Part shown: positions 18,477 to 35,307 of the stretch, piece after piece
Position numbering within the stretch: the first letter of the stretch is position 1
Layout of the letters: the number at the start of each line of letters is the position of its first letter
NCBI GenBank assembly: GCA_903857685.1
Contig: CAIOFO010000057.1
Location: forward strand, 1 to 44,232
Origin: an uncultured Alphaproteobacteria bacterium
GTDB lineage: Bacteria; Pseudomonadota; Alphaproteobacteria; Micropepsales; Micropepsaceae
Direction: 5' to 3'
DNA: 44,232 bases
The notes under the pieces: generated by a model
Seen by the model: the letters and a program-made list of their open reading frames with translations, nothing else
Database searches by the model: none
Told to the model about the DNA's origin: nothing
Made by a program: the position numbers and the translations under genes

Positions 18477-18553
18477 GCGCCCGTAGCTCAGCTGGATAGA
18501 GTGCTGCCCTCCGAAGGCAGAGGTCACAGGTTCGAATCCTGTCGGGTGCGCCA
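18477..18553 (+). tRNA. tRNA-Arg (anticodon CCG), integration site of the element
   Basis: Acceptor GCGCCCG pairs with CGGGTGC (one G-T pair), the anticodon stem CTGCC/GGCAG encloses CTCCGAA (anticodon CCG, reads CGG), the T-arm is ACAGGTTCGAATCCTGT, and CCA is encoded. The segment from the anticodon stem to just past CCA is repeated at 35256-35307, marking insertion of a genetic element into this gene. Confidence 0.95.
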
Positions 18554-18556
18554 TTA
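18505..18556 (+). repeat. attL (3' half of tRNA-Arg)
   Basis: 52 bp identical to 35256-35307 except at 18547 (T) versus 35298 (C). It runs from the 5' side of the anticodon stem to three bases past CCA. This copy completes the functional tRNA and presumably came from the element. Confidence 0.9.
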
Positions 18557-18601
18557 GAATCAATGACTTAGTGACTTTGCTGGGGCTCAGGATTTAGTCC
18601 A

Positions 18602-18621
18602 AGCAAACACATAGCAAACAG
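18602..18621 (+). promoter_or_regulatory. Putative integrase arm-type sites next to attL
   Basis: AGCAAACA occurs at 18602-18609 and 18613-18620, 11 bp apart. The same octamer is clustered next to attR. Repeats at both ends of a tyrosine-integrase element suggest arm-type binding sites. Confidence 0.55.
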
Positions 18622-18970
18622 ACGGACGAGCTAGAGCTGTCCCCTTAGAGGGGGGACGCATTGGTAGAAGTCATGACCAGGCCCGGGCCGCTGGCGATCC
18701 ACCAGGAGGGGTATGTGTCCCCACGGGTCCAGATCAAGCTTTCGACGGGCAGCCCAGTGGCATAACGGCCCCTAATCGATAGGCTTTGCATTTGCCCAGC
18801 ACTGAGTAGGCTTCTGTCTGCCTCCGGTCGGATCCATCCCCAACTCCTATCCCGCGCCACACAAAGGTCATGCCGTGCCCAGACCTATTGAATACACTCA
18901 GAATCGATTTTGCCAATCGCTGATTAGCTTCACAAAGCTGAATTGGCTAGGGCCGTGTGACACGTGTCCG
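18622..18970. other. Element left end: no convincing gene
   Basis: About 350 bp between the left arm sites and the first small gene. Short minus-strand frames exist (for example 18860-18645) but have no recognisable motif or ribosome-binding site. A GC-rich palindrome-like stretch is near 18640-18655. Nothing firm can be called. Confidence 0.4.
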
Positions 18971-19222
18971 TCAGAAGCCGAAGGCCTCAGCCATCTCCGC
19001 CGCAGCCTCGGTCGTAAGACCTGGATGACGGCTCATCGCCGAAGCAATGGGATCGAACGACTTGGGGGGAGGCGGCTCCATGGATGGCCCATTTTTCTTC
19101 TTTAGCGATGCCTCAAGCATTGCGACGTCGGCGATCTTGTCCGGCTTCGGTACCAGTAACGCCTGATCGTGCCGCGCCTGCGGGTCCATCCGGCTGATTG
19201 GCTTTCGCGTATTGGTGACCAT
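18971..19222 (-). CDS. Small protein B of a tandem paralogous pair
   Basis: 83 residues, hydrophilic and Pro/Lys-rich, ending in PIASAMSRHPGLTT followed by EAAAEMAEAFGF. The upstream neighbour has the same C-terminal pattern. ATG 19222 follows the stop of that gene by one base, with its Shine-Dalgarno GGAG inside the end of that gene, so the pair is translationally coupled. No family recognised. Its place next to attL is typical for element cargo. Confidence 0.7.
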   Translation of the reverse strand: MVTNTRKPISRMDPQARHDQALLVPKPDKIADVAMLEASLKKKNGPSMEPPPPKSFDPIASAMSRHPGLTTEAAAEMAEAFGF

Positions 19223-19223
19223 A

Positions 19224-19571
19224 TTACTTCTCCTCCGATTGCGGAGCCGTACGTGGTTTCTCGTCGTAGTCTGGATCCTTCGAAAAGCCGAAAGCTTCTG
19301 CCATCTCCTCGGCTTCGGCGCGCGTAAGCGCGGGATGGGCGCTCATGGCCTGGTCTATCGGCCCCACAAATTCGGGTTGTGGCAGAGCCTGGTTGGCTTC
19401 CTTGAGGAGAAAGCTTGAGACCGGCAGCATTTGACCGGGTGGCTGTCCCGGCCCGCTCAGATCCATGGGGAACATGTTAACCCGCGCCATTCCTTCGAAG
19501 AGCTTACGCCCGGTCTCCCAAGGCTCCGCTTCGGTCGGAGCGTTGCCGGGCGGTACTGATTTCTTGGGCAT
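19224..19571 (-). CDS. Small protein A of a tandem paralogous pair
   Basis: 115 residues from ATG 19571 (MPKKSVPP), chosen because AGAGG lies 6 bases upstream; an open frame continues to 19679. The N-terminal part is low-complexity. Residues about 80-105 carry PIDQAMSAHPALTR and then EMAEAFGF, shared with protein B (18 of 26 positions identical in that segment), and a charged tail follows (KDPDYDEK...). No function assigned; the shared motif may be a small helical interaction element. Confidence 0.7.
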   Translation of the reverse strand: MPKKSVPPGNAPTEAEPWETGRKLFEGMARVNMFPMDLSGPGQPPGQMLPVSSFLLKEANQALPQPEFVGPIDQAMSAHPALTRAEAEEMAEAFGFSKDPDYDEKPRTAPQSEEK

Positions 19572-19858
19572 ATTTGCCTCTTTCGTTGCCAGCATTGCTG
19601 GCCGCATCCCAAAATTGGGTGGCACCTTGCCGAGGATGGCAGGTTGCTGGAGCCGATATGGCTCGCTCTTGATGCGCAAATATCATTTCACACGCGTTGC
19701 AACGACACAAGCAACCTAAGTAGTGGTGCTGGTCGAAATAGGCCTCTCATATTTGAAAACCGGCCACATAACCCTTTCCAAGCCCCCACCCGCGACGGTC
19801 TGACCTAAGTCAATACGGCAAAACCTCGGGAAATCCGCCTAACTCACAAAGCTCGCGC

Positions 19859-20074
19859 GCCCATGAAAGCGCTGCTACGTTCGCTCTTGGAACGGCTCAT
19901 GGGCCATTCTGGGGCTTGATAACCCTTCCATAGGCGGCGTTTGTGCCGCCGCCAAAAGGCACTCCTCCACCGTAAGGTCGAGGAGGCCTGCGCGCATGTT
20001 CAGGGCGAAAGCCCAAAGGCGCAGGCGGCTCTCCTATGGAAGCTTATCAACTCCCCGATCACCAGGTCGGAGGG
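19859..20074 (+). ncRNA. Structured leader RNA (riboswitch-like candidate) of the lipoprotein gene
   Basis: A long helix closes the structure: 19916-19922 with 20044-20050 (7 bp) and 19926-19933 with 20034-20041 (8 bp). Inside are GGCGGC/GCCGCC (19933-19938 with 19945-19950), CTCCTC/GAGGAG with an inner CC-GTAA-GG (19962-19985), and GCCTGCGC/GCGCAGGC (19986-19993 with 20019-20026) capped by GGGC-GAAA-GCCC. Both inner loops are GNRA-type. Upstream, 19859-19866 pairs with 19897-19904. Downstream, CTCC (20051-20054) can pair with GGAG (20069-20072), the ribosome-binding site. No known riboswitch class is recognised. Confidence 0.55.
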
Positions 20075-20082
20075 AAAGATGA
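19996..20082 (+). CDS. Possible 28-residue arginine-rich leader peptide
   Basis: An ATG at 19996, with AGGAGG nine bases upstream, opens a 28-codon frame containing nine Arg codons, four of them consecutive. Its TGA (20080-20082) overlaps the lipoprotein ATG as ATGA. This could be a coupled upstream ORF or an attenuator peptide, or a coincidence within the folded RNA, since the Shine-Dalgarno is part of a stem. Confidence 0.3.
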   Translation: MFRAKAQRRRRLSYGSLSTPRSPGRRER

Positions 20083-20660
20083 AATTCGGTATATCGATAT
20101 TGGCGGTGGCGCTGCTTCTGAGCGGCTGTGCGCAAAGGGGGATGCCGGCGGAGGACGCAGATTATTTTAGTAAATTCTTTGGGCTCACTATTTACTCAGA
20201 GCCTAGCGGCGCCTTGATTTACGGCGAGGACGGAACAGCCTGGGGCGTGACGAAAGCAAATGTGCCCGGCGGGCCGGGATTACAAAAAGCCTTCACCTTT
20301 TCGAGTCACGAGGCTCAGAAGCAGGGAACAACCACATTTATCACGGCGGTATGGGCCAGTGGAGCCAAGTCCAAAGTTAAGTTGGCAATAGGGGGGGCGG
20401 GCAGGCCGCTAGTCGGGAGCTGGACTTTCTCGAGGCCAATGGATGCTCCTGGGCTTGATATTGATTTAAAGGCTGCCAGCCTATCGCAAGTTCAAACCCA
20501 AACACCGCCCCAAACCCAAAGCGAAAATTCTGCTGCAGCGGCCGCGCTCACTGCGTTCGGAATAGGTTTGGCACAGGCCCGAGCAGCGGAAGCCGCAAAT
20601 AGACCCGCGATGTGCACCAGCACCCAAGCCAACGGCATCGTCAATACTTTGTGTCAATGA
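20079..20660 (+). CDS. Lipoprotein, unknown function
   Basis: 193 residues. The signal sequence MKFGISILAVALLLSGC has a lipobox (LLSGC, Cys17). A folded middle part follows (FFGLTIYSEPSGALIYGEDG; PSGALIY resembles PEGA-like surface repeats), then a Gln/Thr/Pro-rich linker and an Ala-rich helix, ending in a segment with two Cys. ATG 20079 is chosen for the lipobox and GGAGGG upstream; the frame is open further but that part is the leader RNA. Likely anchored in the outer or inner membrane facing the periplasm. Confidence 0.8.
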   Translation: MKFGISILAVALLLSGCAQRGMPAEDADYFSKFFGLTIYSEPSGALIYGEDGTAWGVTKANVPGGPGLQKAFTFSSHEAQKQGTTTFITAVWASGAKSKVKLAIGGAGRPLVGSWTFSRPMDAPGLDIDLKAASLSQVQTQTPPQTQSENSAAAAALTAFGIGLAQARAAEAANRPAMCTSTQANGIVNTLCQ

Positions 20661-20738
20661 ACATTGAGACTGGATTAGAAGGGATGGGCTAGCGCAAAAA
20701 ACAGCAGCGCAATGTCATGCGCAAGGCGTGAGCCGTTT

Positions 20739-21407
20739 TCATCGTTCAAGCCAATCAGCCAGCCTCTTCACGGCGCGTGCTTCATAGCGCTCGCCATTCT
20801 CGCGGATACGATCATAGGTGCGCCAGTGCATCCTTGGCGGCTTGGCAGGGAACGGTTCGAACAGGCTCGGCGACCCGCCGAGGCCTCGCCGGATGCGCTG
20901 CGCGATCAGGCGCGGGCGCTCGGCGCTGGCCTGTAGCTGGCTTCTGTACGCCAGCCCAAGGCAAGATCGGCAAAGGACCCTGCCGTCATCGAAGTACAGT
21001 TTGGCGCACCGCTGGCTGCAGCCGGGACATGCAAACCATGAACGCCATCCCCCGTAGTTACAGAGTGTCCGTAACAGCGAAATGGACAGGGTCTTCGGCT
21101 GCACGTGATCGGTCACGTCCGTCAGCACGGCATGGTCGCGGTGGAAAACTATGTTGACGTAGCAAAGGGTCAGGCTGTTACGATTGAATTGCCAAGAGAT
21201 CCGGCCCTCTGGTCGATCAATGAGCTCGCGGACGCGTGGGTGGCGGATGTCGATCGCTGGGGAATCGTTACAGCGGCGACGCCCGCCTCGCGCAGAGACG
21301 TAACTGGGGGGCAATTCCGAAATCATCAGGCAGCAGTGTTTTGTAACATTGCGCTCCCCTTTCGTAACGGCGTCTGGTTGGCCGTCAAATAGCGTCAAGC
21401 CGGGCAT
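20739..21407 (-). CDS. Zinc-ribbon protein common on mobile elements
   Basis: About 222 residues. The core is WFACPGCSQRCAKLYFDDG followed by LCRSCLGLAYRSQ: two C-x2-C pairs forming a probable zinc ribbon. The C-terminal part KPPRMHWRTYDRI matches a family of uncharacterised proteins often seen in alphaproteobacterial islands and plasmids. The start is uncertain: ATG 21407 is used, but ATG 21326 is possible, and the usual N-terminal GSGR-type motif is only weakly seen (SARGGRRRC). Function unknown, nucleic-acid binding likely. Confidence 0.65.
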   Translation of the reverse strand: MPGLTLFDGQPDAVTKGERNVTKHCCLMISELPPSYVSARGGRRRCNDSPAIDIRHPRVRELIDRPEGRISWQFNRNSLTLCYVNIVFHRDHAVLTDVTDHVQPKTLSISLLRTLCNYGGWRSWFACPGCSQRCAKLYFDDGRVLCRSCLGLAYRSQLQASAERPRLIAQRIRRGLGGSPSLFEPFPAKPPRMHWRTYDRIRENGERYEARAVKRLADWLER

Positions 21408-21643
21408 CGGGGAGCCCAACCTGACGACCAGTTTTGTAACTTAATCATCTTCGGCAGCCGACTGTGAGAATTCAAATTGGCCTACCCATGACAGCCATTG
21501 CAGTGTTTATAATACGTATGCGTAGTATACGTTAGTGCAAGCGTCACCCAGCTGGGGATTGCTGCGCGTGGTGGCTGCGCGATAACGCTGCGTCACGAGA
21601 GCTGCGCGGCGGCCATCGAAGACGACAAACCACCAAGTGAAAA

Positions 21644-21786
21644 CCTAATTCGCTTATTTCGCTTATTTCGCACCACGGGGTTCGTGTATTTCTCCGCAGG
21701 AAATAATCCAAAAAGTACAAAAGAAGTACATATGAGTAATTTTGACTTCTACCGGATCGCGAAATAAGCGAATTAAGCGAAATAGG
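21644..21786. repeat. Iteron-type inverted repeat, candidate replication origin
   Basis: Two 28-bp arms (21644-21671 and 21759-21786) are inverted copies with 26 of 28 positions matching. Each is built from about three 9-bp units of the form WTTCGCTTA. The 87-bp centre is AT-rich and holds a repeated AAGTACA. The structure lies 20 bp past the stop of the DUF3987 helicase gene. The 387-bp gap (21420-21806) has no convincing gene. Confidence 0.55.
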
Positions 21787-21806
21787 CCTCCACTGGCCCG
21801 ACAAGT

Positions 21807-23528
21807 CTAGATGACGCGCCAGACCTCCTCGGATCGTCCACCTGTCGCCCGTGTTTCCATTCTGACTAGCTGCCGCGCCAGCAAGACGTTCAAAGCGCGC
21901 GCCAAGTCCTGACCCGACTTGTGGCGATCGAATAATGAGCTGATCTGGGTCCGCGTCATGCCCGCCGTACCCGCTGCCCGCAGCGCCTGCAGCACTGTGT
22001 CTACCGCGCTGTCGCCGAAAGCGTCACCCCAGATGTATGCTGCCGATTGCTCACAGTAGCGCCAAACCTCTAGCGCAGCGCGAAGGTGGACGACCTCCAT
22101 GATATTCGAACCATCGAGAAGTGCGTAGATGAGTGCCAGTCTGCAAACTTGGGCCTCGGCGCGACCAGTGATTGAACCAAACATACCCGGGTGGCCTTCA
22201 GAGAGTTGCGGATATACGCTCTCCCAAAGTGCTCGAGCATCGCTACTCCAAGTCAATTCCGGATTGAACGTGCTGGATGTGTCCCCGAAGGTGTGCGCAA
22301 ACGATCTCCGGCGTAGAGTGTCGACGAGTGTCGTCACCTTTTGTCCAACTTCGGCGATAACGTCAGAATCTTTCCCACCAAAGGGTAGAATCTTGCTGCG
22401 CTTAACGCAGGCGTAAAGGTAACGGTTGGCGAAACCATTTGCTGCGTCAGTCTGGGTAAGTTCTCTCCTCAGTTCGTCTTCTGTGATGTGGCCCACCATG
22501 GAGATATGTGCTCCTGTCGCACGTAGTTGGGAATTTTTCGTCATGCTCGCCAGATTTCCGCGATCCCATGCATCCCGGATTAGGCGCGACAGTGTGTTGC
22601 CCTCGCGTTTCTTAACATTTAGTACGCCAGAGAATTCAGTCTCTTGCACAAGGAGGCGTTTATCATTGACACCCGCATCTTCAATCTTCTCTTCGAGTTG
22701 TTTGGTCTTGCTGTCCCACATCATTTTCTTTACTGGATCGCGAACCGGATAAATCATCCCTTCGCCGCTAGATAATCCGCCATCGGTACGATGTTCGAGC
22801 CAATCACCGGCTCCTTGAAAGAGTGGGCGAATTCTTCCCCACGATGTTCCCTTTCGAGCCTTGGAGCTTTGCCCGACGATGACGGCGAAAAGATTGGGGT
22901 AATGGCGGTCGCCTTCCACCATGTAATAATAGATCCGCCCTACGCAGTTGCCGAAAGCGACCAAAAATTGAAGCAGAAGCGCGACGGGATCAGCCTCCGT
23001 TTGAGGTTCGATGGCACGAACAACCTCGCCAGCTAACCCGTGCAAAGCATGCTCACCTAGAGGCTCAGGCCATTTTCGCAGACCTGGTTTCGATTGCGGC
23101 GTCGCCTTTGGGTTCCAGCCCATTGTTTCAGGGCTGATCCCAAGCCAGCGTAGAAGCGCGAAGGCAGCTTCTTGCGGCGTTGATGCTCCGCCATATTCGA
23201 TCACGACATCTGTGGGCGTCAGCCCTGTTTCTTCGCCGAAGTCACGTATGCCATCAGGGTGCAGCGAGAGATCTTCATCGAGATCGCGTCCAAGATCAGC
23301 GCTGGAGACTCGGTAAGCCTTCGTTCCCGGCTGAAACTTCGCCGTCGGGAAAATTTCCTGAACCCATGCGGGGAGATTGGCAAGTGCGGCGTTGTTGATG
23401 TTTTTGAAGAAGTTGTCGGTCTTTTCGCACGGGTGCTCGCGAGGATTTCGCGGCTGCTCACCGGCAAACTTTGGCCCATAGTCTTTGAGCAGCCAGTCAA
23501 ACTGCCCTGTGTTGAAGTGGTTCAGCAT
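21807..23528 (-). CDS. DUF3987-type helicase/primase-associated protein
   Basis: 573 residues. A Walker A-like segment VIVGQSSKARKGTSWGRI lies in the middle, after an YYYMVEGDRHYPNLF strand region. ETEFSGVL (Walker B-like), LIRDAWDRGNLAS and an arginine-containing NRYLYACVKRSKILP follow, the typical layout of phage/plasmid DUF3987 ATPases. The C-terminus looks like a winged helix. ATG 23528 overlaps the stop of the prim-pol gene (ATGCTGA). In many relatives the primase and this helicase are one chain; here they are two. Role inferred: replication of the excised element. Confidence 0.8.
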   Translation of the reverse strand: MLNHFNTGQFDWLLKDYGPKFAGEQPRNPREHPCEKTDNFFKNINNAALANLPAWVQEIFPTAKFQPGTKAYRVSSADLGRDLDEDLSLHPDGIRDFGEETGLTPTDVVIEYGGASTPQEAAFALLRWLGISPETMGWNPKATPQSKPGLRKWPEPLGEHALHGLAGEVVRAIEPQTEADPVALLLQFLVAFGNCVGRIYYYMVEGDRHYPNLFAVIVGQSSKARKGTSWGRIRPLFQGAGDWLEHRTDGGLSSGEGMIYPVRDPVKKMMWDSKTKQLEEKIEDAGVNDKRLLVQETEFSGVLNVKKREGNTLSRLIRDAWDRGNLASMTKNSQLRATGAHISMVGHITEDELRRELTQTDAANGFANRYLYACVKRSKILPFGGKDSDVIAEVGQKVTTLVDTLRRRSFAHTFGDTSSTFNPELTWSSDARALWESVYPQLSEGHPGMFGSITGRAEAQVCRLALIYALLDGSNIMEVVHLRAALEVWRYCEQSAAYIWGDAFGDSAVDTVLQALRAAGTAGMTRTQISSLFDRHKSGQDLARALNVLLARQLVRMETRATGGRSEEVWRVI

Positions 23529-24178
23529 GACCTGCCACCGTGCTTTTGGCCTGTGACAGCGAACCAACGCCCGGCTGAATAGAATTCAATCTGGGGTCCG
23601 TGCTGCGCCGACGGGTCACGGCTTGCCATCTTAAAAACCTTGCTTCTTCGAAGGTCACAGGCGCTCCCGTCGATCAAAAAGAACCCTTTGAATCCAGTCT
23701 GGCTCGGGCTGATTTCCCAGTAGCCCGGGTAGTGAGCCATGACCTCCTGCGCCCACGGCGCGATAGCGCGGCTCTGCCGATCGCGGCAACTGTCCAGATC
23801 TATGCCGCCGAGCCAGAAATTCCCGTGGTCGCCAAGGACTATGCCAATGCCACCGCCCTGCGGCTTATCGATCCTTCTATTACATGCTTGTGCCTCAGCG
23901 AGGGTGCCCCATTTTCTGGGATCGCTGACATCACCCGCCCCGTTGCTGTGAACGTCGAAGGGCAACTTACGGAGCCTGCCTGTCTTCTTGTCCAGCCTGT
24001 TGGCCCAAGGATGCCATATCGATATGTCCTTGTACGCACTCAGGTCGCCTACGCTGCATTCATCTGTGTACGTCTCTTCCTGATTTTCTTCGTGAGCCTG
24101 GTTATTCTTTGCGTTGTTGTTTGAGCATTCTTCTGAGCCGTCGGGGTCGCGCCCGGCGGCTTTTCTTTGGTTAGTCAT
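23522..24178 (-). CDS. Bifunctional primase-polymerase (prim-pol) domain protein
   Basis: 218 residues from ATG 24178, which has GGGGAGG seven bases upstream. After a charged N-terminus come ISIWHPWANR, a GIGIVLGDHGNFWLGGIDLD segment with the catalytic Asp-x-Asp, WEISPSQTGFKGFF and IEFYSAGRWFAVTGQ, all typical of the prim-pol fold in phage and plasmid primases. The chain ends right after the last prim-pol strand, and the helicase continues in an overlapping frame. It overlaps the HTH gene upstream by 8 bp. Confidence 0.82.
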   Translation of the reverse strand: MTNQRKAAGRDPDGSEECSNNNAKNNQAHEENQEETYTDECSVGDLSAYKDISIWHPWANRLDKKTGRLRKLPFDVHSNGAGDVSDPRKWGTLAEAQACNRRIDKPQGGGIGIVLGDHGNFWLGGIDLDSCRDRQSRAIAPWAQEVMAHYPGYWEISPSQTGFKGFFLIDGSACDLRRSKVFKMASRDPSAQHGPQIEFYSAGRWFAVTGQKHGGRSC

Positions 24179-24515
24179 CGCGAGCCTCCCCGCATATCCA
24201 AGTTTGAGCGGAGCCTTCTGGTTTTTCCGGTCCTTTGTCCTTCTGTTTCCCCTTGTGTGAACCGGCTCCCGCGCCATGAGCGGCAACCTCGGAAGAAGCG
24301 CGGTGGGGCGGCGACATTCGTGCTTCTGTCCACGCGATCACGTCGGCCCAACGATAGAGCACCGTCCGCCCGAATGTTCGAAACGGTGGCCCCCCGCCAC
24401 GGCTAACCATCGACGCCAACGAAGCCGTTGCGATCGGATAGCCCGCGCTGGTGAGGACTTCTGCCACTTGCGACCGGCGCAGTAAGGCATCGGGGTTGAT
24501 TTTATTCGTAAGCAT
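24171..24515 (-). CDS. Helix-turn-helix DNA-binding protein (MerR/excisionase-like)
   Basis: 114 residues. The N-terminal 65 residues match small winged HTH proteins: LLRRSQVAEVLTSAGYPIA, then ASLASMVSRGGGPPFRTFGR, and VLYRWADVIAWTEAR (the usual 'xYrxxDLxxWl' end). The tail is basic and low-complexity. It is the first gene of a three-gene operon with the primase and helicase. It may regulate that operon, recruit the primase or act in excision. Confidence 0.75.
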   Translation of the reverse strand: MLTNKINPDALLRRSQVAEVLTSAGYPIATASLASMVSRGGGPPFRTFGRTVLYRWADVIAWTEARMSPPHRASSEVAAHGAGAGSHKGKQKDKGPEKPEGSAQTWICGEARDD

Positions 24516-24889
24516 TGTTGGCCCATCGCGTGAAATTGCGATTGGACGATGCCCTTAGAAGCCCGGTTGGAAAATTGGTGCATTGGGCTGGTACAGTTTG
24601 CACTAGGTGCAACGGCGACCAATGCCGCGCCAGCGCGACCGCGGCGGCCACGCATCCAGTAGGACTTGGAAGGGACCCTGGCAGCGCAGCAACAAATAGA
24701 TTCTAAGAGCCCGTCGGTGTGCCGTCACCACATCGCGGGGCCGTATCTTGCCGCGCATGCCGCTGAGATGGATTGGCGCTAGGATAACTGCCGCGTTGCC
24801 AATGGCGACCAATACCGCGCCATCGTGACGGCGGCAGCGAAGCACCCTGTTAGCCGCCAGTGGAAAGGTTGTTGGCAGCGCCGCGCGGC
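24516..24889. other. Gene-free gap with a diverged 25-bp direct repeat
   Basis: About 370 bp upstream of the replication operon. A 25-bp unit occurs at 24615-24639 and 24805-24829 (three mismatches, 190 bp apart), beginning GCGACCAAT. It may be a regulator or replication-protein site. Short frames here show no protein features. Confidence 0.4.
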
Positions 24890-25120
24890 CTAATCTTCCG
24901 CAGCCTCTGATTCGTCATCTTCCGCTTCTGGATTTTCCCCAAACTCCAGCGCATGGCGCTTCGGGATTACTCCTGCCTCAACGGCCTGCACTATTCCAAC
25001 TTGGATGAAGTGGCGCATCACCCCGGCCTTTGCCTTGCCGTAGGCTCCGGTTTTGGCCAAATCCACTAAATAGGCATGAAGGATCGGCCGCAGCCGCGTT
25101 TTGGCTTCCTTGTTGGCCAT
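24890..25120 (-). CDS. Small hypothetical protein
   Basis: 76 residues. It begins MANKEAKTRLRPILHAYLVD, followed by a helical stretch (TGAYGKAKAGVMRHFIQVGI) and an acidic tail. The middle resembles ribbon-helix-helix-like small proteins found on alphaproteobacterial elements, but that is a weak inference. GAGG precedes the ATG by five bases. Confidence 0.6.
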   Translation of the reverse strand: MANKEAKTRLRPILHAYLVDLAKTGAYGKAKAGVMRHFIQVGIVQAVEAGVIPKRHALEFGENPEAEDDESEAAED

Positions 25121-25990
25121 TTGCGCCTCAAAAATGCAATTTTGCTCCGCAATTGGCTTGAAAAGCGAGTCAAAAGGCGTAGGATTCGACTCAGCCCGGC
25201 GCGTCGTGCTTGGCTAAAAACGTGGCGCTTAATGCGCCGAAGCCCGCGCCCTCTAGAAGGGTCACGGGCCTCGACTACTCTCCCCCGCTACAATTGGGGG
25301 CGTGCGCACCTCGTCCGATGGCCTTCGCGAAAAGGTAACTCCATCTGGACTTCGGCTCTTACCGAGTATGTCTCCCGGCAGACGGCGATTCGAAAGAATC
25401 GCCGATTTTGCTTATAGCCCTTTCGGGCCATGTTCGGCAGGGCGCTAACCTTGGTTACCCCTACTAGATGACAAATCAGAGCACCCAGCCGCGATATCTA
25501 GCGGAGCATTCTTGAGTTCCGTCAAGACGTTTTGGCATGTGGATAAGCCCCAAAACGCAAAAATATGGGCGTGGGTTGGGGACTCAGCCCATGTTTAAGC
25601 TGGCGCGGTCTTCGCGTTATTGGAAGTGTTAGGGGCGCGCGCAAAGCCATGAGCAGGCGTTGTCGCCGTCCTGTTTTCGTGTCCTGACCGATGCACTGGC
25701 GCTCCATTGTTTGACGCGGTGACCATTTCTCCCTTGCTGCGGGCGAGAACCTACGGGCGGGTCCGGTCCTTCCGAAACCATCGCGGATCAGGTTTTTTCC
25801 CCGCCGTGCTCGCCCCTTCGGTGCTTGCGCGCGGCTCCTCGCGCACGGGCTATTGCCCTCCAAAAAACCTGCCCGCTCCGGTCGTCCGCTGCGCTTCCGC
25901 CCTTTGGGTTCGGGTGCCCGTCCGCCGCCCGAAACGGTTCGCCATCGCAAGGGAGATGGTCTCCCTGCGAAACCAAAAATGGAGATACCA
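25121..25990. other. Long gene-poor region with hairpins upstream of DUF736
   Basis: No convincing ORF in 870 bp. It holds a CCCCC/GGGGG hairpin near 25276-25294, a terminator-like hairpin at 25383-25409, a GCCC-TTTC-GGGC hairpin near 25417-25428 and a TGCGCG/CGCGCA stem (25826-25831 with 25840-25845). The GC-rich stretch from about 25690 up to the DUF736 gene resembles leaders seen upstream of DUF736 genes on other alphaproteobacterial elements (from memory, not checked). Confidence 0.45.
25383..25409 (+). terminator. Intrinsic terminator-like hairpin with no recognised upstream gene
   Basis: A perfect 9-bp stem (CGGCGATTC/GAATCGCCG) with a GAAA loop is followed by ATTTTG. On the plus strand it could end a transcript starting between 25121 and 25380, a stretch without a recognised gene. 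Confidence 0.55.
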
Positions 25991-26314
25991 ATGCCTGCAA
26001 TCGGTCATGTCACAAAGCAGAAGGACGGCAACTTCAAGGGCCAGCTCAAGACACTTTCCTTCCGCGCCCCGGTCGATATTCTGCTCAATCCTGCCAAGAA
26101 TGGCGACACGCAGCCCGACTATCGCGTCTACAGCCAAGCCGTCGAGGTTGGCGCGGGTTGGATCAAGAAGGGCAAAACGTCCGGCGAAGACTATATTTCG
26201 CTGAGCCTGGCCGACCCCGCTTTCGGTCCGAAAAAGCTCTATGCCAACCTGGGGCGTGCTGCCGGCCAGGACGATGACAGCGTGTTCGCCGTGATCTGGA
26301 ATCCCGCAGACTGA
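25991..26314 (+). CDS. DUF736 family protein
   Basis: 107 residues: MPAIGHVTKQKDGNFKGQLK, then DYRVYSQAVEVGAGWIKKG, YISLSLADPAFGPKKLYANL and VIWNP, the full DUF736 pattern. These proteins are very common on alphaproteobacterial plasmids and integrative elements; their function is unknown. ATG 25991 has GGAGA upstream. A strong terminator follows the gene. Confidence 0.93.
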   Translation: MPAIGHVTKQKDGNFKGQLKTLSFRAPVDILLNPAKNGDTQPDYRVYSQAVEVGAGWIKKGKTSGEDYISLSLADPAFGPKKLYANLGRAAGQDDDSVFAVIWNPAD

Positions 26315-26324
26315 GCGAGCCAAA

Positions 26325-26361
26325 GGCCCCTGCGCCGGTGGCGCGGGGGCCTTCTCTTTTT
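26325..26361 (+). terminator. Intrinsic terminator of the DUF736 gene
   Basis: GGCCCCTGCGCC (26325-26336) pairs with GGCGCGGGGGCC (26340-26351), interrupted only by one T-G pair, with a 3-base loop. It is followed by TTCTCTTTTT. It lies 10 bp after the DUF736 stop. Confidence 0.85.
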
Positions 26362-26504
26362 GATACGGCTTGATACGGCGAATTTCGCGAGTCGCGGTAT
26401 TCGCCAGTATGCAACCACAGGATTAGCGCGACACACTCGATTCGGGGGGCACGATGCGGGCCTCCGTAATCGTGCCTCGACAAAAACAAAACAAAGGCGT
26501 TGGC

Positions 26505-26741
26505 ATGATGGAAATGAAACAGGGCGTGCCCTCGGCGCGCGCTCTAAGTCCCTTCTTTACCCCTGTTCAGGCGGCGGATTTCGTCAAACTGTCCTGGCGC
26601 ACACTCGAACGGATGCGTCAGAACGGCGAAGGTCCAGCCTATCGGAAGCATGGCCGATACATTCGCTATCACATTGATGATCTTGAAGCGTGGTCAAACA
26701 CGCACGCGATGACCAAGACCGATGCGTTGCCGCGTTCTTAG
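26505..26741 (+). CDS. AlpA/excisionase-like HTH protein
   Basis: 78 residues from ATG 26505 (ATG 26508 is also possible; an AAAGG lies upstream). The pattern FFTPVQAADFVKLSWRTLER, then GEGPAYRKHGRYIRYHIDDL and EAWSNTH is the HTH_17/AlpA winged-helix form. Such proteins act as excisionases or as regulators of integrase or primase genes in integrative elements and P4-like satellites. Confidence 0.82.
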   Translation: MMEMKQGVPSARALSPFFTPVQAADFVKLSWRTLERMRQNGEGPAYRKHGRYIRYHIDDLEAWSNTHAMTKTDALPRS

Positions 26742-26960
26742 CCTCGCGGCTGGCGCGCTCGTAGCAGGATGTTTGATCGAACTGGTGTCGATTCCGCGTC
26801 CACTTTTGGTGTGGAACGTCACGCATAGCGCCCCAATCGGGCTTTCCTCAGCAACCCGCCTTCAATGCGCGTGATCGCCGCAATTTCGTCACGATTGAGA
26901 AGAATGTGGCGCAAGCCCTAAGCGGCGCATAAGTGGTAGCTTGAGGTCAAATACTGACTA

Positions 26961-28103
26961 TCAGGCGGCGATCTGGTTTTCGCCGGACCTAATTCGGGTT
27001 CCAGGCAGGGCGACGGTCACGGTCGTACCACTGCCCGGTACGCTGGCAATATCAATGGTGATGCCCAGTTGCCGGGCCGTCGCATAGCTAATCGCTAGCC
27101 CCAACCCCAGCCCGGAAAATTTGCGCTGTAAGTGACCCTCGACCTGGAAAAAGGGCTTTCCGAGCCAGCCGAGAACTTCCGCATTTATGCCAATGCCGTG
27201 GTCGCGAATGACCACTATAGCTTGTTCTTCGAATCGAGTTTGAATCTCAACTACGCTGTTTTCGGACGAAAATTTGATCGCATTGTCCAGAACACGCACA
27301 AGAATGTCGTGGAATGCCGCAACGTTAGTCACCGCGATAACCCCATCGTTGTAGGGGGTCCGAGCCAATTCTATCTTCGCAGCGCCAGCCTTGTCTTGGA
27401 CGCGCAGCAGCGCATCGTCCACTACCATTTGGACATCCACAATTTCAGTTTCGAATGTTTTGTCGCCTCCTTCGATCCGCGACATCTCGATGACGTCGTT
27501 GATGGTTGTCAGGAGCGCCTCGCCGCTATGATGAATGTGTCCGGCATATTCTTCGTACTGCGCGGCTCCCAACGGTCCGAACAGTCTGCCCAGCAGAATG
27601 CCGGAAAAGCCGAGAATCGCATTCAGCGGAGTGCGCAGCTCATGACTTATTGTCCCGATGAAGACTGAGCGGGCACGGCATTCCTGGCGCAGCAGGGCAG
27701 CTTCCGAGTTCCGCCGCTCCAACTCCAGTATAGTTGCACCCCAGCGCTTCAATGTAAGGGACAGCAATATGCCGATCAGAATCGCCACTGATACTGCAAA
27801 TGGCGCGATGGATAGCGCGAAGGCGCTGCCCGGAGTTCGCGGCTTCCACCAAAGGAATCCGATCGGTTCGCCAGCGGCATCCCGCAGATCTATGCGGGCG
27901 TAGCCTGGAGGTGGCGGCCGGAGAGTCAATGAGACTGACGCGAGGTTAAAATCGCGTTGTACCTTGGCAATGCGGGAGGCGCCGAAATTCTGCAGATAAA
28001 CTTCCACATTGCTTCGCGGAAGCGACTTAAAAGCCCGCTCGTCGTTGGGAACGATACGCGAGGCGGCACCAAGGTAAATGCGGTCGCCAATCCTGCACCG
28101 CAT
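26961..28103 (-). CDS. 5'-truncated CHASE4 sensor histidine kinase
   Basis: 380 residues. The protein starts in the middle of a CHASE4-type sensor (RIYLGAASRIVP, then LRDAAGEPIGFLWWKP) and has only the second TM helix (about 95-117). A kinase core follows: H-box FIGTISHELRTPLNAILGFS, N-box DNAIKF, G1 RDHGIGI, G2 FSGLGLGLAI. There is a stop codon two codons before the ATG, and the first half of CHASE4 and TM1 are missing. A neighbouring frame upstream (from 28176) encodes RATKDLLGIMIDAVQDW, which could be a shifted remnant. It is probably decayed, although a soluble or mis-oriented kinase could still be made. Confidence 0.75.
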   Translation of the reverse strand: MRCRIGDRIYLGAASRIVPNDERAFKSLPRSNVEVYLQNFGASRIAKVQRDFNLASVSLTLRPPPPGYARIDLRDAAGEPIGFLWWKPRTPGSAFALSIAPFAVSVAILIGILLSLTLKRWGATILELERRNSEAALLRQECRARSVFIGTISHELRTPLNAILGFSGILLGRLFGPLGAAQYEEYAGHIHHSGEALLTTINDVIEMSRIEGGDKTFETEIVDVQMVVDDALLRVQDKAGAAKIELARTPYNDGVIAVTNVAAFHDILVRVLDNAIKFSSENSVVEIQTRFEEQAIVVIRDHGIGINAEVLGWLGKPFFQVEGHLQRKFSGLGLGLAISYATARQLGITIDIASVPGSGTTVTVALPGTRIRSGENQIAA

Positions 28104-28533
28104 CGATCATAATGCCGAGAAGATCTTTGGTGGCCCGCTCGGTTGACATGTACGCGGATGATGACATTGCAATACCGCTAAGTTAGTCCCCAAGTTTATA
28201 GGCACAACCGTGCAGAAACGTTAAAGTCCGGCGGCCATTGGGTTCCCGTTAAGCGCTTAGTAACCTTCATTTCAGCCGAATTAGCGGACTCAGAAATTGC
28301 CGTTTTCTTCGGAGAAATATTCCAGTGAAAAGCCGCTCGTTGCATTGCACTACATCGCGCATGGTTCACCGGAACGCTACGTCATTGTGCAAGGCGATTT
28401 GCGATTGCTCTAACCTGCAAGCCCAAGGTGGGATGCCGCGCTCAAAAAGAACCGGGAAAATAGTCACATTGAATGAATATTCCCTGTTCCGCTGACGGCG
28501 GCATTCAGCCATCTTCGCGCCCGTTTGGACTGT
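28104..28533. other. Gap upstream of the histidine kinase
   Basis: 430 bp, AT-richer than the flanks. The part next to the kinase contains a frame-shifted 45-codon reading frame that may be the lost kinase N-terminus. The rest shows no ORF, repeat or clear promoter. Confidence 0.4.
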
Positions 28534-28746
28534 TTATACTTCCAAGTTGCGAACCTGCCAGGCGACACGGATTTCGGCCTCGCCCAAGAGATGCTTCTCC
28601 CCCATATAAATGGCAAACGCCTCCCCCTCGCGCCGTACGAAAAGATAATGGGCCCGCTCGATCGCATTTAGAAGCGTTTGACAGTCTTCGACGAGCTGGC
28701 GCGTTCCGTCCCGAAATCTCAGTTGAATGTCCACGGCAATATCCAC
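28534..28746 (-). CDS. Small hypothetical protein
   Basis: 70 residues from GTG 28746: MDIAVDIQLRFRDGTRQLVE, then AIERAHYLFVRREGEAFAIY and EIRVAWQVRNL. It looks like a compact alpha/beta domain with alternating strands. It directly follows the 28750-29898 gene, whose stop lies just before it, so it is probably in the same operon. No family recognised. The start codon is uncertain (GTG 28734 also possible). Confidence 0.55.
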   Translation of the reverse strand: MDIAVDIQLRFRDGTRQLVEDCQTLLNAIERAHYLFVRREGEAFAIYMGEKHLLGEAEIRVAWQVRNLEV

Positions 28747-28749
28747 CCA

Positions 28750-29898
28750 TTAGACCGAAATACATGCTTCTCTAATGCCCGGCTGGATCTCGGCGTCTTC
28801 CTGACCAAAGCTTCTCACAAAGTCTTCAAAAATAGCGGTCAACTCATCTACGTCGGTCGATTTCGGTGACCCGGCTGGAAATCTATACTGCCAAAAGCTC
28901 GTTACATGGCCCAGGGTGCCCATCTTTTCGCCGATCTCCAAGAAGAGCGACGGAGCGCTTAACAGAAATTCTCGAAACATTTTGGGATCTTGCCGATCAA
29001 TCAGGCTCGCATAGGCGTCATCATATATACCAATGATCTTGCGAATCGCATCATTGCTCGCCTTGGCTCCCCTCAGAATGTGATTTTTGCTTTCCGCAAA
29101 AAATGTCCTTTGAGCTGCATTGGTATTTCCAACAGGGGTAATGACTTTAATTTCGCGCAACGATTTGATCAAATTCGGCCAAAATTCCTGCAGGCTCCAT
29201 TTGTAATATATGAAGCCGCGCCAACTGAAGACACCTTCACAAAACTCCTCGGGTCCAAGGTTAAGGGTCATCCTCATGGGTTCGAGCTTCTCGTTTACCT
29301 CGCTGGAAAGAAGCGCAGAGACCATGCGAGCAGTTGAGTTATCGACCCGACCCGAAGTGTTGCCATTCGCCAAAGCCGTGAGCCGGCCTATTTCGAGGGC
29401 AGCATAGTCGTGCATCCGCTGCTGGTCCGACGCGGAAATCGCGAAATACCAGGAATCGGCTTCAATGCCATTGCTGCGCAACTGCTCTCGCAGCAGAAAG
29501 GGGTCGAGCGATGGAATTCTGTCAATCAGACGAAGGACGTCAAGATCACATTTCAAGTCCGCCGCTTCCTTGTAATTGCCGACTTCGGCTATGAGCTGTT
29601 CGAAACTACGCTGATCAACAAACATGGACCGTCCGCCCGCACTCAAATTGTTTCTTTCGAAAGGGACGATTATTTTGGTCGCGAGCGCACGACGAGAAGG
29701 AAACAAATCTAGCTCGTCGGCCCTCAGTCGATGTTTCAGAACGATGGCATTGTTTAGGATATTCGACCGTAGCAACGGCTTATGGCCCGCGTCATCGCTC
29801 CCTAGCCGCGCCTGCCCGATAGCGGTCAGATTCAGAACCCGGCTTGAGGAAGCGCCGCTTAATGCACTCAGGCAGCGAACCGTTCTATCATTCGCCAT
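28750..29898 (-). CDS. Hypothetical protein linked to a tandem PilZ protein
   Basis: 382 residues, soluble, no signal peptide. It opens MANDRTVRCLSALSGASSSR, has an FVDQRSFEQL segment, a central GVFSWRGFIYYKWSLQEFWP stretch and a C-terminal helical part. I do not recognise the family. The start overlaps the PilZ gene by 11 bp, so it is co-translated with a c-di-GMP receptor and probably acts with it. Confidence 0.72.
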   Translation of the reverse strand: MANDRTVRCLSALSGASSSRVLNLTAIGQARLGSDDAGHKPLLRSNILNNAIVLKHRLRADELDLFPSRRALATKIIVPFERNNLSAGGRSMFVDQRSFEQLIAEVGNYKEAADLKCDLDVLRLIDRIPSLDPFLLREQLRSNGIEADSWYFAISASDQQRMHDYAALEIGRLTALANGNTSGRVDNSTARMVSALLSSEVNEKLEPMRMTLNLGPEEFCEGVFSWRGFIYYKWSLQEFWPNLIKSLREIKVITPVGNTNAAQRTFFAESKNHILRGAKASNDAIRKIIGIYDDAYASLIDRQDPKMFREFLLSAPSLFLEIGEKMGTLGHVTSFWQYRFPAGSPKSTDVDELTAIFEDFVRSFGQEDAEIQPGIREACISV

Positions 29899-30487
29899 CG
29901 GAGTGCCGCTGTGCTAGTTCCAAGAATTGTATGGCAATACCTTCGCTGTGATGTCGCACCACCCGTCCATACATTCGGCCGAGATTGATCAGATCGCCGA
30001 TGGGCGGGCGCGAAACTGTTCTCAGCGATATTCCCTGAAGGGAAATGTCCAGCACATCACAACGAACCTGTTCGCCATTTGGCCGACCAAAGTATCCGGA
30101 CGAAAGCGAAGGCGTCCTCAGATGGCGCCGTAACCTCGTTTTCGAGGAGCCACCCTCTCTCACAAAGGTTTCAATATCTTGTAACAGGCGCTGCCGCTTG
30201 AGTTCCCGACAAACGAACCGCAAACCCAATTCGCCCTGGCGGTGTCGGGTGGTTATCGCTTCAAATCTACCAAATCCGTCAATAAACAAGACGACGAAGG
30301 TTTGGAGGGTTGGCGGTTCCTCGCACTGAACGCCGGCATCCCCGCCCGAGATATTCAATATGTGGCAATCCAGCGTGGTCTGTTCTGCAGGCACAAATAT
30401 CTTGCCTTCAAGCGCAATGGAGTGCCGCGTGAATTCACGCTGCTCCTGGCTCAGTGCTTGGTCGGAGACGCTGGTTAGAATGCCCAC
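29888..30487 (-). CDS. Tandem PilZ-domain protein (c-di-GMP receptor)
   Basis: 199 residues from GTG 30487. Two PilZ-like halves are visible: the first has REFTRHSI (R-x3-R) and ILNISGGDAGV (N/D-x-S-x2-G); the second has RRHLRTPS and VLDISLQGISL. The second half keeps the D-x-S-x2-G pattern best. PilZ proteins bind cyclic di-GMP and control motility, surface polysaccharide or attachment. First gene of a three-gene minus-strand operon, divergent from a DUF2336 gene. Confidence 0.82.
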   Translation of the reverse strand: MGILTSVSDQALSQEQREFTRHSIALEGKIFVPAEQTTLDCHILNISGGDAGVQCEEPPTLQTFVVLFIDGFGRFEAITTRHRQGELGLRFVCRELKRQRLLQDIETFVREGGSSKTRLRRHLRTPSLSSGYFGRPNGEQVRCDVLDISLQGISLRTVSRPPIGDLINLGRMYGRVVRHHSEGIAIQFLELAQRHSDGE

Positions 30488-30836
30488 GTGAACCTGTTCG
30501 CTTTTGATGGCGGCTTGGGCGGACTGTATGTGACAATAATTAAGGGCCGATTTCTGTTAGAGTTGATGCTGCATTAGAGTTAACGGTTGGTAATCGTTCA
30601 ACGGGCCCACGGGACAACCATGTGATCCTGCGATAAGCGATCAAAATATGTGCACCTGACACTGCTAAGGCATCGGCGCGGATGGCGCAGCGCAGTTGGC
30701 GGTGTCGCTGCGTTCTATTGAGATAGTCTGTGATTTCCGCGCAGTTTAAATAACTACTTAACGTCCGCCGGCCATAGTCTAGCTCCTATTGTCACGTAGT
30801 CGTTTCATTATTACGATCTAATCGATTGAGCTGGCG
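30488..30836. other. Divergent intergenic region between PilZ and DUF2336 genes
   Basis: 349 bp, AT-rich, presumably holding both promoters. No convincing -35/-10 pair, repeat or ORF stands out. Confidence 0.4.
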
Positions 30837-31919
30837 ATGACAGAAAGTCCGTCAAGTTTTGCATTGTTGGCAAGCATGTCTGACGACATGCCCAGCGAAC
30901 AGCGCCGCAATCTCTTGCGTCAAGTGACGGCGAAATTTGGGCAGAGCGCAGAGCCAGGAGACGATGCCGGTCTTGCCCCCCTCGATGAAATTCTTTCAGC
31001 GCTTTCCGCGGACTTTGCGTTGCACGTCCGGGCCGAATTGGCCCATCTTGTTGCGGCCACGTCGCGGTTCGAGCGCACGGCCGCGAAGTTTGCCATAGAC
31101 GATATCGAAGTCGCAGGCCCCATTCTGAAACATAGCCGTGCGTTGAGTGAGGCGACACTTTTGAAAGTTGTCGCCCAAAGGTCCCAACCCCATTTGATGG
31201 CGGTCACGAAACGGCAGGAGATTAGTCCCATCGTGTCGCACGCCTTGGTTGAGGCTGGCGACGACACCGTAGTCGTGTCCCTCCTCGCTAACGATGGGGC
31301 TCAAATAGCGCAAGATACCTTCGAAGTGGTTGCGACTCGGGCCCAAGGCAGCAGCACTTTGCAAGCCCCTTTCATCCGGCGCCAGGATGTTCCGTTGGAG
31401 CTGCTGAATGACCTTTACGCCAAGGTGGAAAACGGCCTGCGATTGGAGATCGTTTCCAAGTTCAATTCGGTTTCCAGCGAAGAAATCGAACGAGCATTTC
31501 AGCGCAGCCGGACGCGGCTGGCCAAGACAGCGAACGGGGTGCCCGAGGATTTTGACAAGGCGCAAGGCCGTATTGATGATCTAGACCGGCGCGGCTTTCT
31601 CAACCCGCCGGGTCTTGCCACGCTTATGCGCGAAGGCGCAAAGGGCCGTACGGCTTTCAATATTGCGTTTGCGCGGCTGGCGCACGTCGAATTTGATCTG
31701 GTCCAGCGCACGGTAGAGGCTCGTGACCTTGATACGGTGGGGCTCCTCTGTCGTGGCGCGGGTTTCGACCGCGCTCTTTATGTGTCGATCGCGATTGCCC
31801 TAAAAAATCCCGAAGACCGTGAGCCGACACCTGAGAAGCTAGGTAAGCTTTACGAAAGTGTGCCCATTCAGGCGGCGCAGCGCGCGTTGCGCTTCTGGAA
31901 GGCCCGGGTTGCGGCTTAG
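30837..31919 (+). CDS. DUF2336 domain protein
   Basis: 360 residues of mainly helical, HEAT-like character: LLRQVTAKFGQS, then LSADFALHVRAELAHLVAAT, DDIEVAGPILKHSRALSEAT and KRQEISPIVSHALVEAGDDT, the recurring DUF2336 layout. The C-terminal part adds LDRRGFLNPPGLATLMREG and LCRGAGFDRALYVSIAIAL. DUF2336 proteins are mostly alphaproteobacterial and often linked with signalling genes; function unsettled. It faces the PilZ operon. Confidence 0.85.
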   Translation: MTESPSSFALLASMSDDMPSEQRRNLLRQVTAKFGQSAEPGDDAGLAPLDEILSALSADFALHVRAELAHLVAATSRFERTAAKFAIDDIEVAGPILKHSRALSEATLLKVVAQRSQPHLMAVTKRQEISPIVSHALVEAGDDTVVVSLLANDGAQIAQDTFEVVATRAQGSSTLQAPFIRRQDVPLELLNDLYAKVENGLRLEIVSKFNSVSSEEIERAFQRSRTRLAKTANGVPEDFDKAQGRIDDLDRRGFLNPPGLATLMREGAKGRTAFNIAFARLAHVEFDLVQRTVEARDLDTVGLLCRGAGFDRALYVSIAIALKNPEDREPTPEKLGKLYESVPIQAAQRALRFWKARVAA

Positions 31920-32180
31920 CCCGCAAGTCATGCTACTTGTCTAAATTAGGTCAGGAAAAACCTACTAAGGGCTTCCGGTATCACGACACCTACTTAGAAT
32001 TTGTAAACTAGACCAAGGCAGCATCGATGGTGCCAAAAGTTATACATGGGCGTTTTCGCGGTCTTACGACAGCCGGCGCACCTTGGTTTCCCCGCTTGCC
32101 GAACTCTTCGTCATTGCGAGAGCTTCAACGGCGAGCGTGTGAGGGAGAGTTGTTTCTCTAATTGGCGCTGGCTAAAGCGG

Positions 32181-32462
32181 CTAACTCTCCCAAGCCTTGT
32201 TCAACGTTTTTGCTACCAGAGCAGCCTTGTCATTGGGTAAAAAACGGGCATAGTGTTTCTGGACCATGTTCGATGAATCTTGTATGGCAAAACCGGCCTG
32301 CTCATAGGACCCGGTCGTCTTGAGAACGTGGGTAGCTAGAACGTCGCGAATACAATGCGGGCCGTGGGGTAACAGCCCCTCGACGGCACCCTTACCCGTG
32401 TAAGGGTTGAATATCCCATAGCGTTGAATAATACAGCGCCAGGCCTCGTAAAAAGCGCGACG
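32181..32462 (-). pseudogene. C-terminal remnant of an older tyrosine integrase
   Basis: The frame encodes the last ~93 residues of a phage-type integrase: RRAFYEAWRCIIQRYGIFNP, then LPHGPHCIRDVLATHVLK (H-x2-R region), and DSSNMVQKHYARFLP with the catalytic-Tyr region. The N-terminal and core domains are missing; the frame upstream of 32462 is unrelated. It points to an earlier insertion or recombination inside the element. The gap 31920-32180 holds nothing recognised. Confidence 0.7.
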
Positions 32463-32862
32463 GGTATGCTCGCCGACCTGTCCGGCAAGAAGGCCGCAGA
32501 CAAGCTGGTAAGTGCAAAATTGAAAGACCAGAAGGCCGCTCTTGTCACTGCCGCCGCCGGAAATGCAGCGTGGTTGCCCGGCTGGATGGCGTTCCCCGCG
32601 TCCTAAATTCGGATGATACCGCCGCGCCCCCAACCGGGCGCGGCGGCTCCTTTCCGCTCGCGCCGGGTAGCCGTTCCGATACGTAGCCGTCCTTGGTCCG
32701 TTCGCGCCGCTGGCATCGTCCGGCCCTTGCGTGGGCCAGGCTCGTGAAATGTCGCCGAAAGCCCTGCCGATCCACCGCTACCCACCGCGCATGTCTGCCG
32801 CATTCGGTCTGCCCGCCATTGTCTTGCAGTTGATCGAATAGCGTCGGTGTTATTTCGTGCTG
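32463..32862. other. Gap with a possible plus-strand gene fragment
   Basis: A plus-strand frame ending at 32606 encodes GMLADLSGKKAADKLVSAKL and more coding-like residues. It has no start of its own: it runs out of the integrase remnant at about 32462. It may be the 3' end of a lost gene. The rest (32607-32862) has no convincing ORF. Confidence 0.35.
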
Positions 32863-33057
32863 TTAGCGCACGATTTCCCAAAGCAACTGCTGCCCGATGC
32901 CCGGCATGGACCGGATAAGGCCGCGCTTACTCTGCCAGGGCTTTAGGTTCGCCGTGGTGCGCTTCATCATCAACCGGCACAGTGCCTTGTCATTGGTGTC
33001 TAAGTTGCGGGCCTTCATCACGGGATCGCAGACTTGGGCCGTGGTGAGTGGGCGCAT
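32863..33057 (-). CDS. Small hypothetical protein, HTH-like
   Basis: 64 residues: MRPLTTAQVCDPVMKARNLD, then LCRLMMKRTTANLKPWQSKR and a MPGIGQQLLWEIVR end. The pattern (a 'T-A-x-V' helix, a middle helix, then a beta-hairpin ending in LLWEI) resembles small winged-helix-like proteins common on alphaproteobacterial islands. No good Shine-Dalgarno. Function unknown. Confidence 0.55.
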   Translation of the reverse strand: MRPLTTAQVCDPVMKARNLDTNDKALCRLMMKRTTANLKPWQSKRGLIRSMPGIGQQLLWEIVR

Positions 33058-33097
33058 CGCCGATGTGCTGGACCTGAGCGTGGTCGACCAGGCTGAG

Positions 33098-35109: not shown

Positions 35110-35121
35110 GGGTGGGCCTTT

Positions 35122-35238
35122 AGCAAACAGTTAGCAAACAACTTCGCGCAAACTGTAGCAAACCAAAGGCAATGGTTGCAAGGTCAAAAGCCCCAAAATA
35201 TAGGTATTTTACGAGCGGACGCAGTTTCTAGCAAACAG
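35122..35238 (+). promoter_or_regulatory. Putative integrase arm-type sites next to attR
   Basis: AGCAAACA-like octamers at 35122-35129 and 35133-35140 (11 bp apart), GCAAACTG at 35148-35155, AGCAAACC at 35157-35164 and AGCAAACAG at 35230-35238. The first cluster sits in the probable integrase promoter. Confidence 0.55.
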
Positions 35239-35255
35239 TTACAAATCCAGGGAAT

Positions 35256-35307
35256 TGCCCTCCGAAGGCAGAGGTCACAGGTTCGAATCCTGTCGGGCGC
35301 GCCATTA
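35256..35307 (+). repeat. attR (displaced 3' half of tRNA-Arg)
   Basis: 52 bp matching 18505-18556 except C at 35298. CGGGCGC here would pair perfectly with the tRNA acceptor GCGCCCG, so this is probably the host's original 3' end, displaced by integration. Confidence 0.9.

Follow-up and report, generated by a model that had tools for sequence, protein, structure and literature searches.

Genomic setting of the leader RNA

Within the window, by which we mean the whole stretch of 44,232 nucleotides analysed here, a leader RNA lies on the plus strand at 19911-20064, directly before a mobile-element lipoprotein gene whose product has no Pfam match (Table 1). A 16.75-kb island at tRNA-Arg, bounded by 57-bp direct repeats (18505-18561 and 35256-35312) and equipped with an integrase of the tyrosine type (33823-35109), contains the leader 1.35 kb inside its boundary. 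This integrative island at tRNA-Arg(ccg) occupies 18477-35312, and its gene content comprises the integrase, an AlpA-like HTH_17 protein, DUF3987, DUF736, a histidine kinase, PilZ and DUF2336. It also carries a SAM-I/IV riboswitch (RF01725, 65 bits) at 19572-19680 on the minus strand, heading a pair of small paralogous ORFs (19224-19571 and 18971-19222; 51% over 39 amino acids) that match no Pfam family and for which the remaining 68 genomes of the genus hold no homologue.

Upstream of the leader lies a weak promoter-like site, assigned by position only. Relatives of the leader reach a sigma-70-like promoter score of at least 8 in 60% of cases versus 18% of shuffles, with the -10 element mostly beginning 31-38 nt before the GGGG hairpin. 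The window's own site is a poor match, and the automatic scan chose a different one. We infer that the promoter of the window copy probably lies at this site, where most relatives have theirs, and that transcription would start just upstream of the leader.

Fold and parts of the leader

The minimum free energy of 19900-20090 is -89.4 kcal/mol, compared with -69.0 ± 4.7 kcal/mol for shuffled sequences (z = -4.35; 0 of 200 shuffles as low). This bears out the initial annotation, which had proposed a structured leader RNA in front of a mobile-element lipoprotein gene; the features it described are in place, including two hairpins with GNRA loops (GUAA at 19972-19975 and GAAA at 20007-20010). The closing helix is made of two recognition pairings, a1 with a' and b1 with b'; the first has the 7 bp originally given, and the second has 9 bp instead of 8. 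The GGGG pairing at the start of the 5' strand (alignment columns 1-4 with 151-154) is present in 99% of cells and nearly invariant, and the GUGC/GCAC connector helix is likewise almost invariant and so without covariation support. A small connector hairpin, CGGC/GCCG, was weak and not above shuffles. Two unpaired stretches, AUGUNCA and AAAG, are conserved.

Table 1 Features of the leader RNA and of the gene it precedes, in window coordinates
Feature	Position	Strand	Basis or remark
Weak promoter-like site CTCGCG - 18 nt - TACGTT	19852..19881	+	By position only
GGGGC, start of 5' strand	19911..19915	+	Possible partners of GGGG: local CCC, or CCCC 20053-20056
a1 (TTGATAA)	19916..19922	+	Pairs with a'
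b1 (TTCCATAGG)	19926..19934	+	Pairs with b'
GUGC/GCAC connector helix, 19943-19946 with 19959-19962	19943..19962	+	Pairing in 99% of cells
P3 hairpin CTCCTCCACC/GGTCGAGGAG, GUAA loop	19962..19985	+	Arms 19962-19971/19976-19985; excludes P0
C4-like core (model R1)	19976..20064	+	Covariance model and pair conservation
P0, acceptor-like outer stem	19976-19985/20051-20060	+	Part of C4-like core
P4	19986-19993/20019-20026	+	Part of C4-like core
GAAA hairpin	20003-20014	+	Part of C4-like core
P5	20028-20031/20040-20043	+	Part of C4-like core
b' (CCTATGGAA)	20033..20041	+	Recognition loop of P5
a' (TTATCAA)	20044..20050	+	Single-stranded recognition segment preceding the 3' arm of P0
P0 3' arm CTCCCCGATC, also anti-Shine-Dalgarno	20051..20060	+	CUCCC(C)/Shine-Dalgarno hairpin in most relatives
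ACCA, like the tRNA 3' end read by RNase P	20061..20064	+	Sequence
Shine-Dalgarno GGAGGG of lipoprotein gene	20069..20074	+	Sequence
Lipoprotein gene	20079..20660	+	193 aa, lipobox LLLSGC

P3 and P0 share one strand (19976-19985), and each is kept at about 96%; P3 is paired in 96% of cells, with changes that are mostly one-sided. Conservation supports two competitions, one between P3 and P0 for the strand GGUCGNGGAG and one between P0 and the Shine-Dalgarno for CUCCCC. Copies of the shared strand with A at the sixth position (GGUCGAGGAG, including that of the window) form a better P3 and lose one P0 pair; an A-C mismatch in P0 is found in 11 of 46 copies, the window among them. Mutually exclusive folds had been proposed in the initial annotation and do exist, with a different identity from the one suggested: the GCCGCC/GGCGGC pairing it put forward (19945-19950 with 20024-20029) is present in 61.6% of cells, the same as in shuffles, and shows no double change.

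The pairing of CTCC (20051-20054) with the Shine-Dalgarno, also suggested from the outset, holds up. In the window, 12 nt separate the end of CUCCCC, part of the P0 3' arm, from the Shine-Dalgarno; the CUCCC(C)-Shine-Dalgarno pairing is possible in most copies, and in Microvirga CUCCCCGACCACCAG...CUGGUGGUCG...GGGAG forms a long hairpin. Anti-Shine-Dalgarno pairing averages -11.8 kcal/mol versus -9.3 kcal/mol with a shuffled RBS region, and own partners are no better than swapped ones because any C-rich arm pairs with a generic purine-rich Shine-Dalgarno.

A widespread family in Alphaproteobacteria

The window copy reaches the gathering score of no Rfam family, in keeping with the initial impression that it belongs to no known class, and at E ≤ 10 Rfam returns only two weak matches on the opposite strand, none to C4 or sRNA-Xcc1. 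The leader is nevertheless no orphan, as it had been called, and belongs to a widespread family. With blastn, a second copy was found in the same genome (L002, 77% identical), and homologues of 70-84% identity occur in 18 of the 69 genomes of the genus, one of which is cut short (L018) and one spurious (L019). Similarity stops at about 20066, just before the Shine-Dalgarno, and the genes beyond differ. A pattern scan retrieved 46 stretches from Microvirga, Tardiphaga, Bradyrhizobium, Chelativorans, Caulobacter and uncultured Alphaproteobacteria, together with 20 viral contigs, most of which hold a real copy; these loci were chosen by the GAAA hairpin and AACTCCCCG, so conservation at those positions is partly imposed. 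The core covariance model R1, against which the window core scores 98.9 bits (E 1.5e-18) as a member of the model's own training set, matches 44 of 385 alphaproteobacterial genomes, or 38 of 276 genera, which places the branch in about one in seven of the genera sampled, with up to seven copies per genome among the matches listed. Named phages gave no blastn match to the leader, and plasmids gave four weak ones, in Shinella and Paracoccus. One relative (L125) has the core in two tandem copies in a single leader (1382-1469 and 1501-1589, minus strand).

The genes led by these relatives encode lipoproteins, small membrane proteins, six Xre-type regulators, one Sie-like protein, an endonuclease and a methyltransferase, and share no common pathway. 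Immediately after the 10-bp P0 stem, RCCA is present in 53 of 65 relatives.

Covariation and variable recognition strands

Across 46 cores, 96.9% of cells are paired and 13 of 26 pairs have changed on both sides, whereas only 35-45% remain paired when the partner is shifted by 1-3 columns. Compensatory changes in the closing stem, named beforehand as the support to look for, were found: in 30 aligned complete leaders, a1 pairs with a' in 100% of cells (columns 7-12 with 142-147), and three columns have changed on both sides. The b1:b' pairing shifts within the alignment and was therefore tested alignment-free, which gave a perfect 7-mer in 53 of 59 loci. The same 59 loci hold 53 distinct b' sequences on a fixed scaffold.

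Partners are specific to their own locus. The a1b1/b'a' duplex has a mean energy of -31.7 kcal/mol with its own partner versus -21.1 kcal/mol with partners exchanged among loci, and the best of 20,000 such permutations reached -23.4 kcal/mol. Duplex energy against shuffled flanks proved too blunt a target test in GC-rich DNA, and exact partners were counted against permutation instead. By this count, an exact upstream partner of at least 6 nt exists for a' in 52 of 58 loci (10 by permutation) and an exact upstream partner for b' in 47 of 58 (3.4 by permutation), while both segments have 6-nt upstream partners in 47 of 58 loci, compared with 1.4 expected and a permutation maximum of 7. Judged from sequence, hypervariable complementary strands on a fixed scaffold are the pattern of an antisense recognition loop, not of a metabolite pocket. 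At the ribosome-binding site, a partner for a' was found in 0 of 60 window-type loci and the b'a'-RBS duplex of the window branch is no better than shuffled; a search for a second b'a' target elsewhere in the window returned nothing above GC-rich chance duplexes. The second copy in the same genome (L002) has the same a' (TTATCAA) as the window leader and a different b'.

Kinship to sRNA-Xcc1

The literature presents sRNA-Xcc1 (RF02221), an integron-cassette small RNA of Xanthomonas, as a trans-acting sRNA located upstream of symE in integrons, and also as a virulence-linked or vesicle-exported sRNA. It is a mapped transcript of 88 nt (PMC2996969). Its gathering score of 53 bits is not reached by any window-type relative, the best of which (L008) nonetheless gives a full-length, sub-threshold match of 31.7 bits (E 0.007 scored alone). 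Four intermediate loci match both sRNA-Xcc1 and R1: L132 scores 37.2 bits against sRNA-Xcc1, below threshold and at R1 coordinates, and L134, L135 and L122 likewise give full-length sub-threshold matches there. In the other direction, R1, whose training cores are of the window type, picks up sRNA-Xcc1 cores at their own coordinates (L104 with 45 bits, E 9e-7; L092, L114, L101 and L097 with E < 1e-3). These reciprocal sub-threshold matches at matching coordinates indicate that the 87-nt core is homologous to sRNA-Xcc1.

The likeness extends beyond Rfam's 87-position model. As in the window, sRNA-Xcc1 loci have an a1b1 strand upstream: partners of at least 6 nt for both a' and b' are present upstream in 25 of 30 loci (permutation mean 1.7, maximum 5). 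In 16 of 30, partners also lie near the RBS (a2b2; permutation mean 1.3, maximum 6), as in L099, with CGAAAACCCCAATAGTAGCGG upstream and CGAAAAGGAGAATAGTAGCC before the ATG. Genes after sRNA-Xcc1 loci include antirepressors (Rha, Bro-N, KilA-N, P22_AR_N) and SymE. Unlike the window leader, sRNA-Xcc1-type leaders have a2b2 at the RBS in about half of cases and, judged by eye, a hairpin resembling an intrinsic terminator that separates a1b1 from the core. In L088-L117 this hairpin has a conserved CCCG(T/A)CAG loop and five to seven T after it, so leaders of this type may be controlled in part by transcription attenuation.

Weighing the explanations

The best overall explanation, to which we assign a probability of roughly two in three, is that the leader belongs to the C4-type antisense-RNA leaders, in an alphaproteobacterial branch absent from Rfam, and operates through two alternative folds. 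For its identity taken by itself, as a C4-type antisense leader and sister to sRNA-Xcc1, we have high confidence. A purely cis-acting translational switch that responds to a protein, temperature or some other cue, makes no small RNA and retains its C4 likeness from an ancestor whose antisense function was lost would accommodate the two exclusive folds, the anti-Shine-Dalgarno pairing in most leaders with its long hairpin in Microvirga, and the lack of a2b2 at the RBS in all 60 window-type loci. Such a switch needs pairing, not a fast-changing code, yet a' and b' keep exact partners while varying from copy to copy, nor has it any need of an acceptor-like stem with RCCA, kept in 53 of 65 relatives; we consider it unlikely, though with a chance worth keeping in mind.

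We think the C4-type reading also fares far better than a metabolite-binding riboswitch, which appears very improbable. The multi-helix junction, the GNRA hairpin, the conserved unpaired AUGUNCA and AAAG, and the anti-Shine-Dalgarno are all features that a riboswitch would have, and the initial annotation had called the leader riboswitch-like. In the ligand sense this did not survive, because the variable complementary strands change together and differ in almost all copies and the downstream genes share no pathway; the kinship to sRNA-Xcc1, the C4-like layout and the position outside any known class, at the Rfam gathering score and at E ≤ 10 alike, point the same way. A similarly slim chance attaches to a DNA-level element, such as a recombination site or the end of a small transposon, whose inverted repeats would mimic RNA stems. 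Patchy spread on mobile elements, dispersed copies and transposase-like ORFs beside some of them (translations inspected by eye) would suit such an element, but the position and orientation are fixed directly before a start codon, G-U pairs are kept on the plus strand (33 of 46 at P0 pair 2) where the other strand would have A-C mismatches, promoter-like sequence lies upstream in relatives, and the related sRNA-Xcc1 is a mapped transcript (PMC2996969). That a coding feature accounts for the conservation, be it a 28-codon Arg-rich frame overlapping the lipoprotein start or a longer TTG-started frame, is hardly credible: the shorter frame, a rival from the beginning, has the window's ATG at 19996 and its ATGA overlap in its favour, yet the frame from the conserved ATG stops after 6 codons (GCC TAA) in 60 of 62 copies and extends to 28 codons only in the window, and the changes in the helices are compensatory.

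A proposed model of two folds and its implications

For the C4-type leader we propose a working model in which a closed fold is off, the C4 fold, possibly cut by RNase P, is on, and the core acts in trans in a code-specific manner; we judge its chances to be evenly balanced. The transcript would begin just upstream and run through the target-like 5' strand (a1b1) and the C4-shaped core into the lipoprotein gene. In fold A, the 5' strand would capture a' and b', P3 would form, and the freed CUCCCC would cover the Shine-Dalgarno and turn translation off. In fold B, which would exclude fold A, the core would close through the acceptor-like P0 ending in ACCA, and CUCCCC would be consumed in P0, leaving the Shine-Dalgarno open. 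In calculations restricted to nested folds, fold A (a1b1 closed) has the lower energy in 55 of 59 leaders, with a mean difference of 10.3 kcal/mol from fold B. Fold B has the shape that RNase P would be predicted to excise as a small antisense RNA, as for the C4 of phages P1 and P7; the GG start and the frequent RCCA are sequence hints of such recognition.

A released core would bind the a1b1 strand of any leader with a matching a/b code, and cross-talk between element copies should accordingly be governed by that code. If the model is true, the window leader and its second genomic copy (L002) should not fully cross-talk. It is also conceivable, although distinctly doubtful, that the leader is an RNase P-gated on-switch, in which excising or folding the antisense RNA would remove the anti-Shine-Dalgarno, so that antisense production and lipoprotein translation would become one event and a matching core from other copies would drive more leaders into the same state. 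The variable a/b strands amount to a code that can be read, from which one might predict the resident elements that regulate a given incoming one.

Comparison with C4 and related RNAs

C4 of P1/P7 is a classic antisense immunity RNA, with which phage P1 silences genes of its own, and offers a precedent for RNase P processing and for action through a' and b' (PMC5320573), and Rfam's C4 model is blind to the branch described here. The window does not reach the C4 gathering score (RF01695, 45 bits) and R1 does not find P1 C4; the proposed kinship is based on a shared layout, not on a significant score in either direction. According to the Rfam alignment, P1 C4 has the same order of parts, namely outer stem, tetraloop hairpin, loop hairpin, single strand, outer stem and ACC. 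The outer stem of C4, which Rfam groups with c4-a1b1 (RF03163) in clan CL00128, begins with GG, as does that of the window core. Both have a1b1 upstream of the core in one leader (about 120 nt in P1), and in the window branch this strand is complementary to a' and b'. By contrast, C4 has a2b2 over the RBS of the gene it controls, whereas the window branch is without a2b2 and uses CUCCCC against the Shine-Dalgarno; in the window branch an additional hairpin, P3, competes with the outer stem; and C4 leads an antirepressor, the window branch a lipoprotein gene.

Another member of the C4 clan, c4-2 RNA (RF02944), gives no match to the window. A sub-threshold c4-2 match (34.8 bits; L097:2890-2958, minus strand) lies within a 3-kb locus that also holds an sRNA-Xcc1-type leader and an antirepressor-like gene. 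Rfam prints no clan for sRNA-Xcc1, while C4, c4-a1b1 and c4-2 carry CL00128, and in the literature searched a single paper mentions sRNA-Xcc1 together with C4 antisense RNA, giving each its own annotation.

The C4-like Group 1 sRNAs of Acinetobacter baumannii resemble the window branch in their many dispersed copies, fixed scaffold and variable a' loop, and are apparently processed from longer transcripts at GG (PMC5320573). Unlike the window branch, they are gammaproteobacterial, are recognised as C4 by Rfam and were reported as sRNAs rather than as leaders of small lipoproteins (PMC5320573). sRNA-Xcc1-type loci, for their part, share C4's arrangement of a1b1, a'b' and a2b2. With a1b1 upstream, a2b2 at the RBS and antirepressors or SymE downstream, sRNA-Xcc1 is tied to the C4 architecture, and its reading as a trans-acting, virulence-linked or vesicle-exported RNA can now be tested against a function in mobile-element control.
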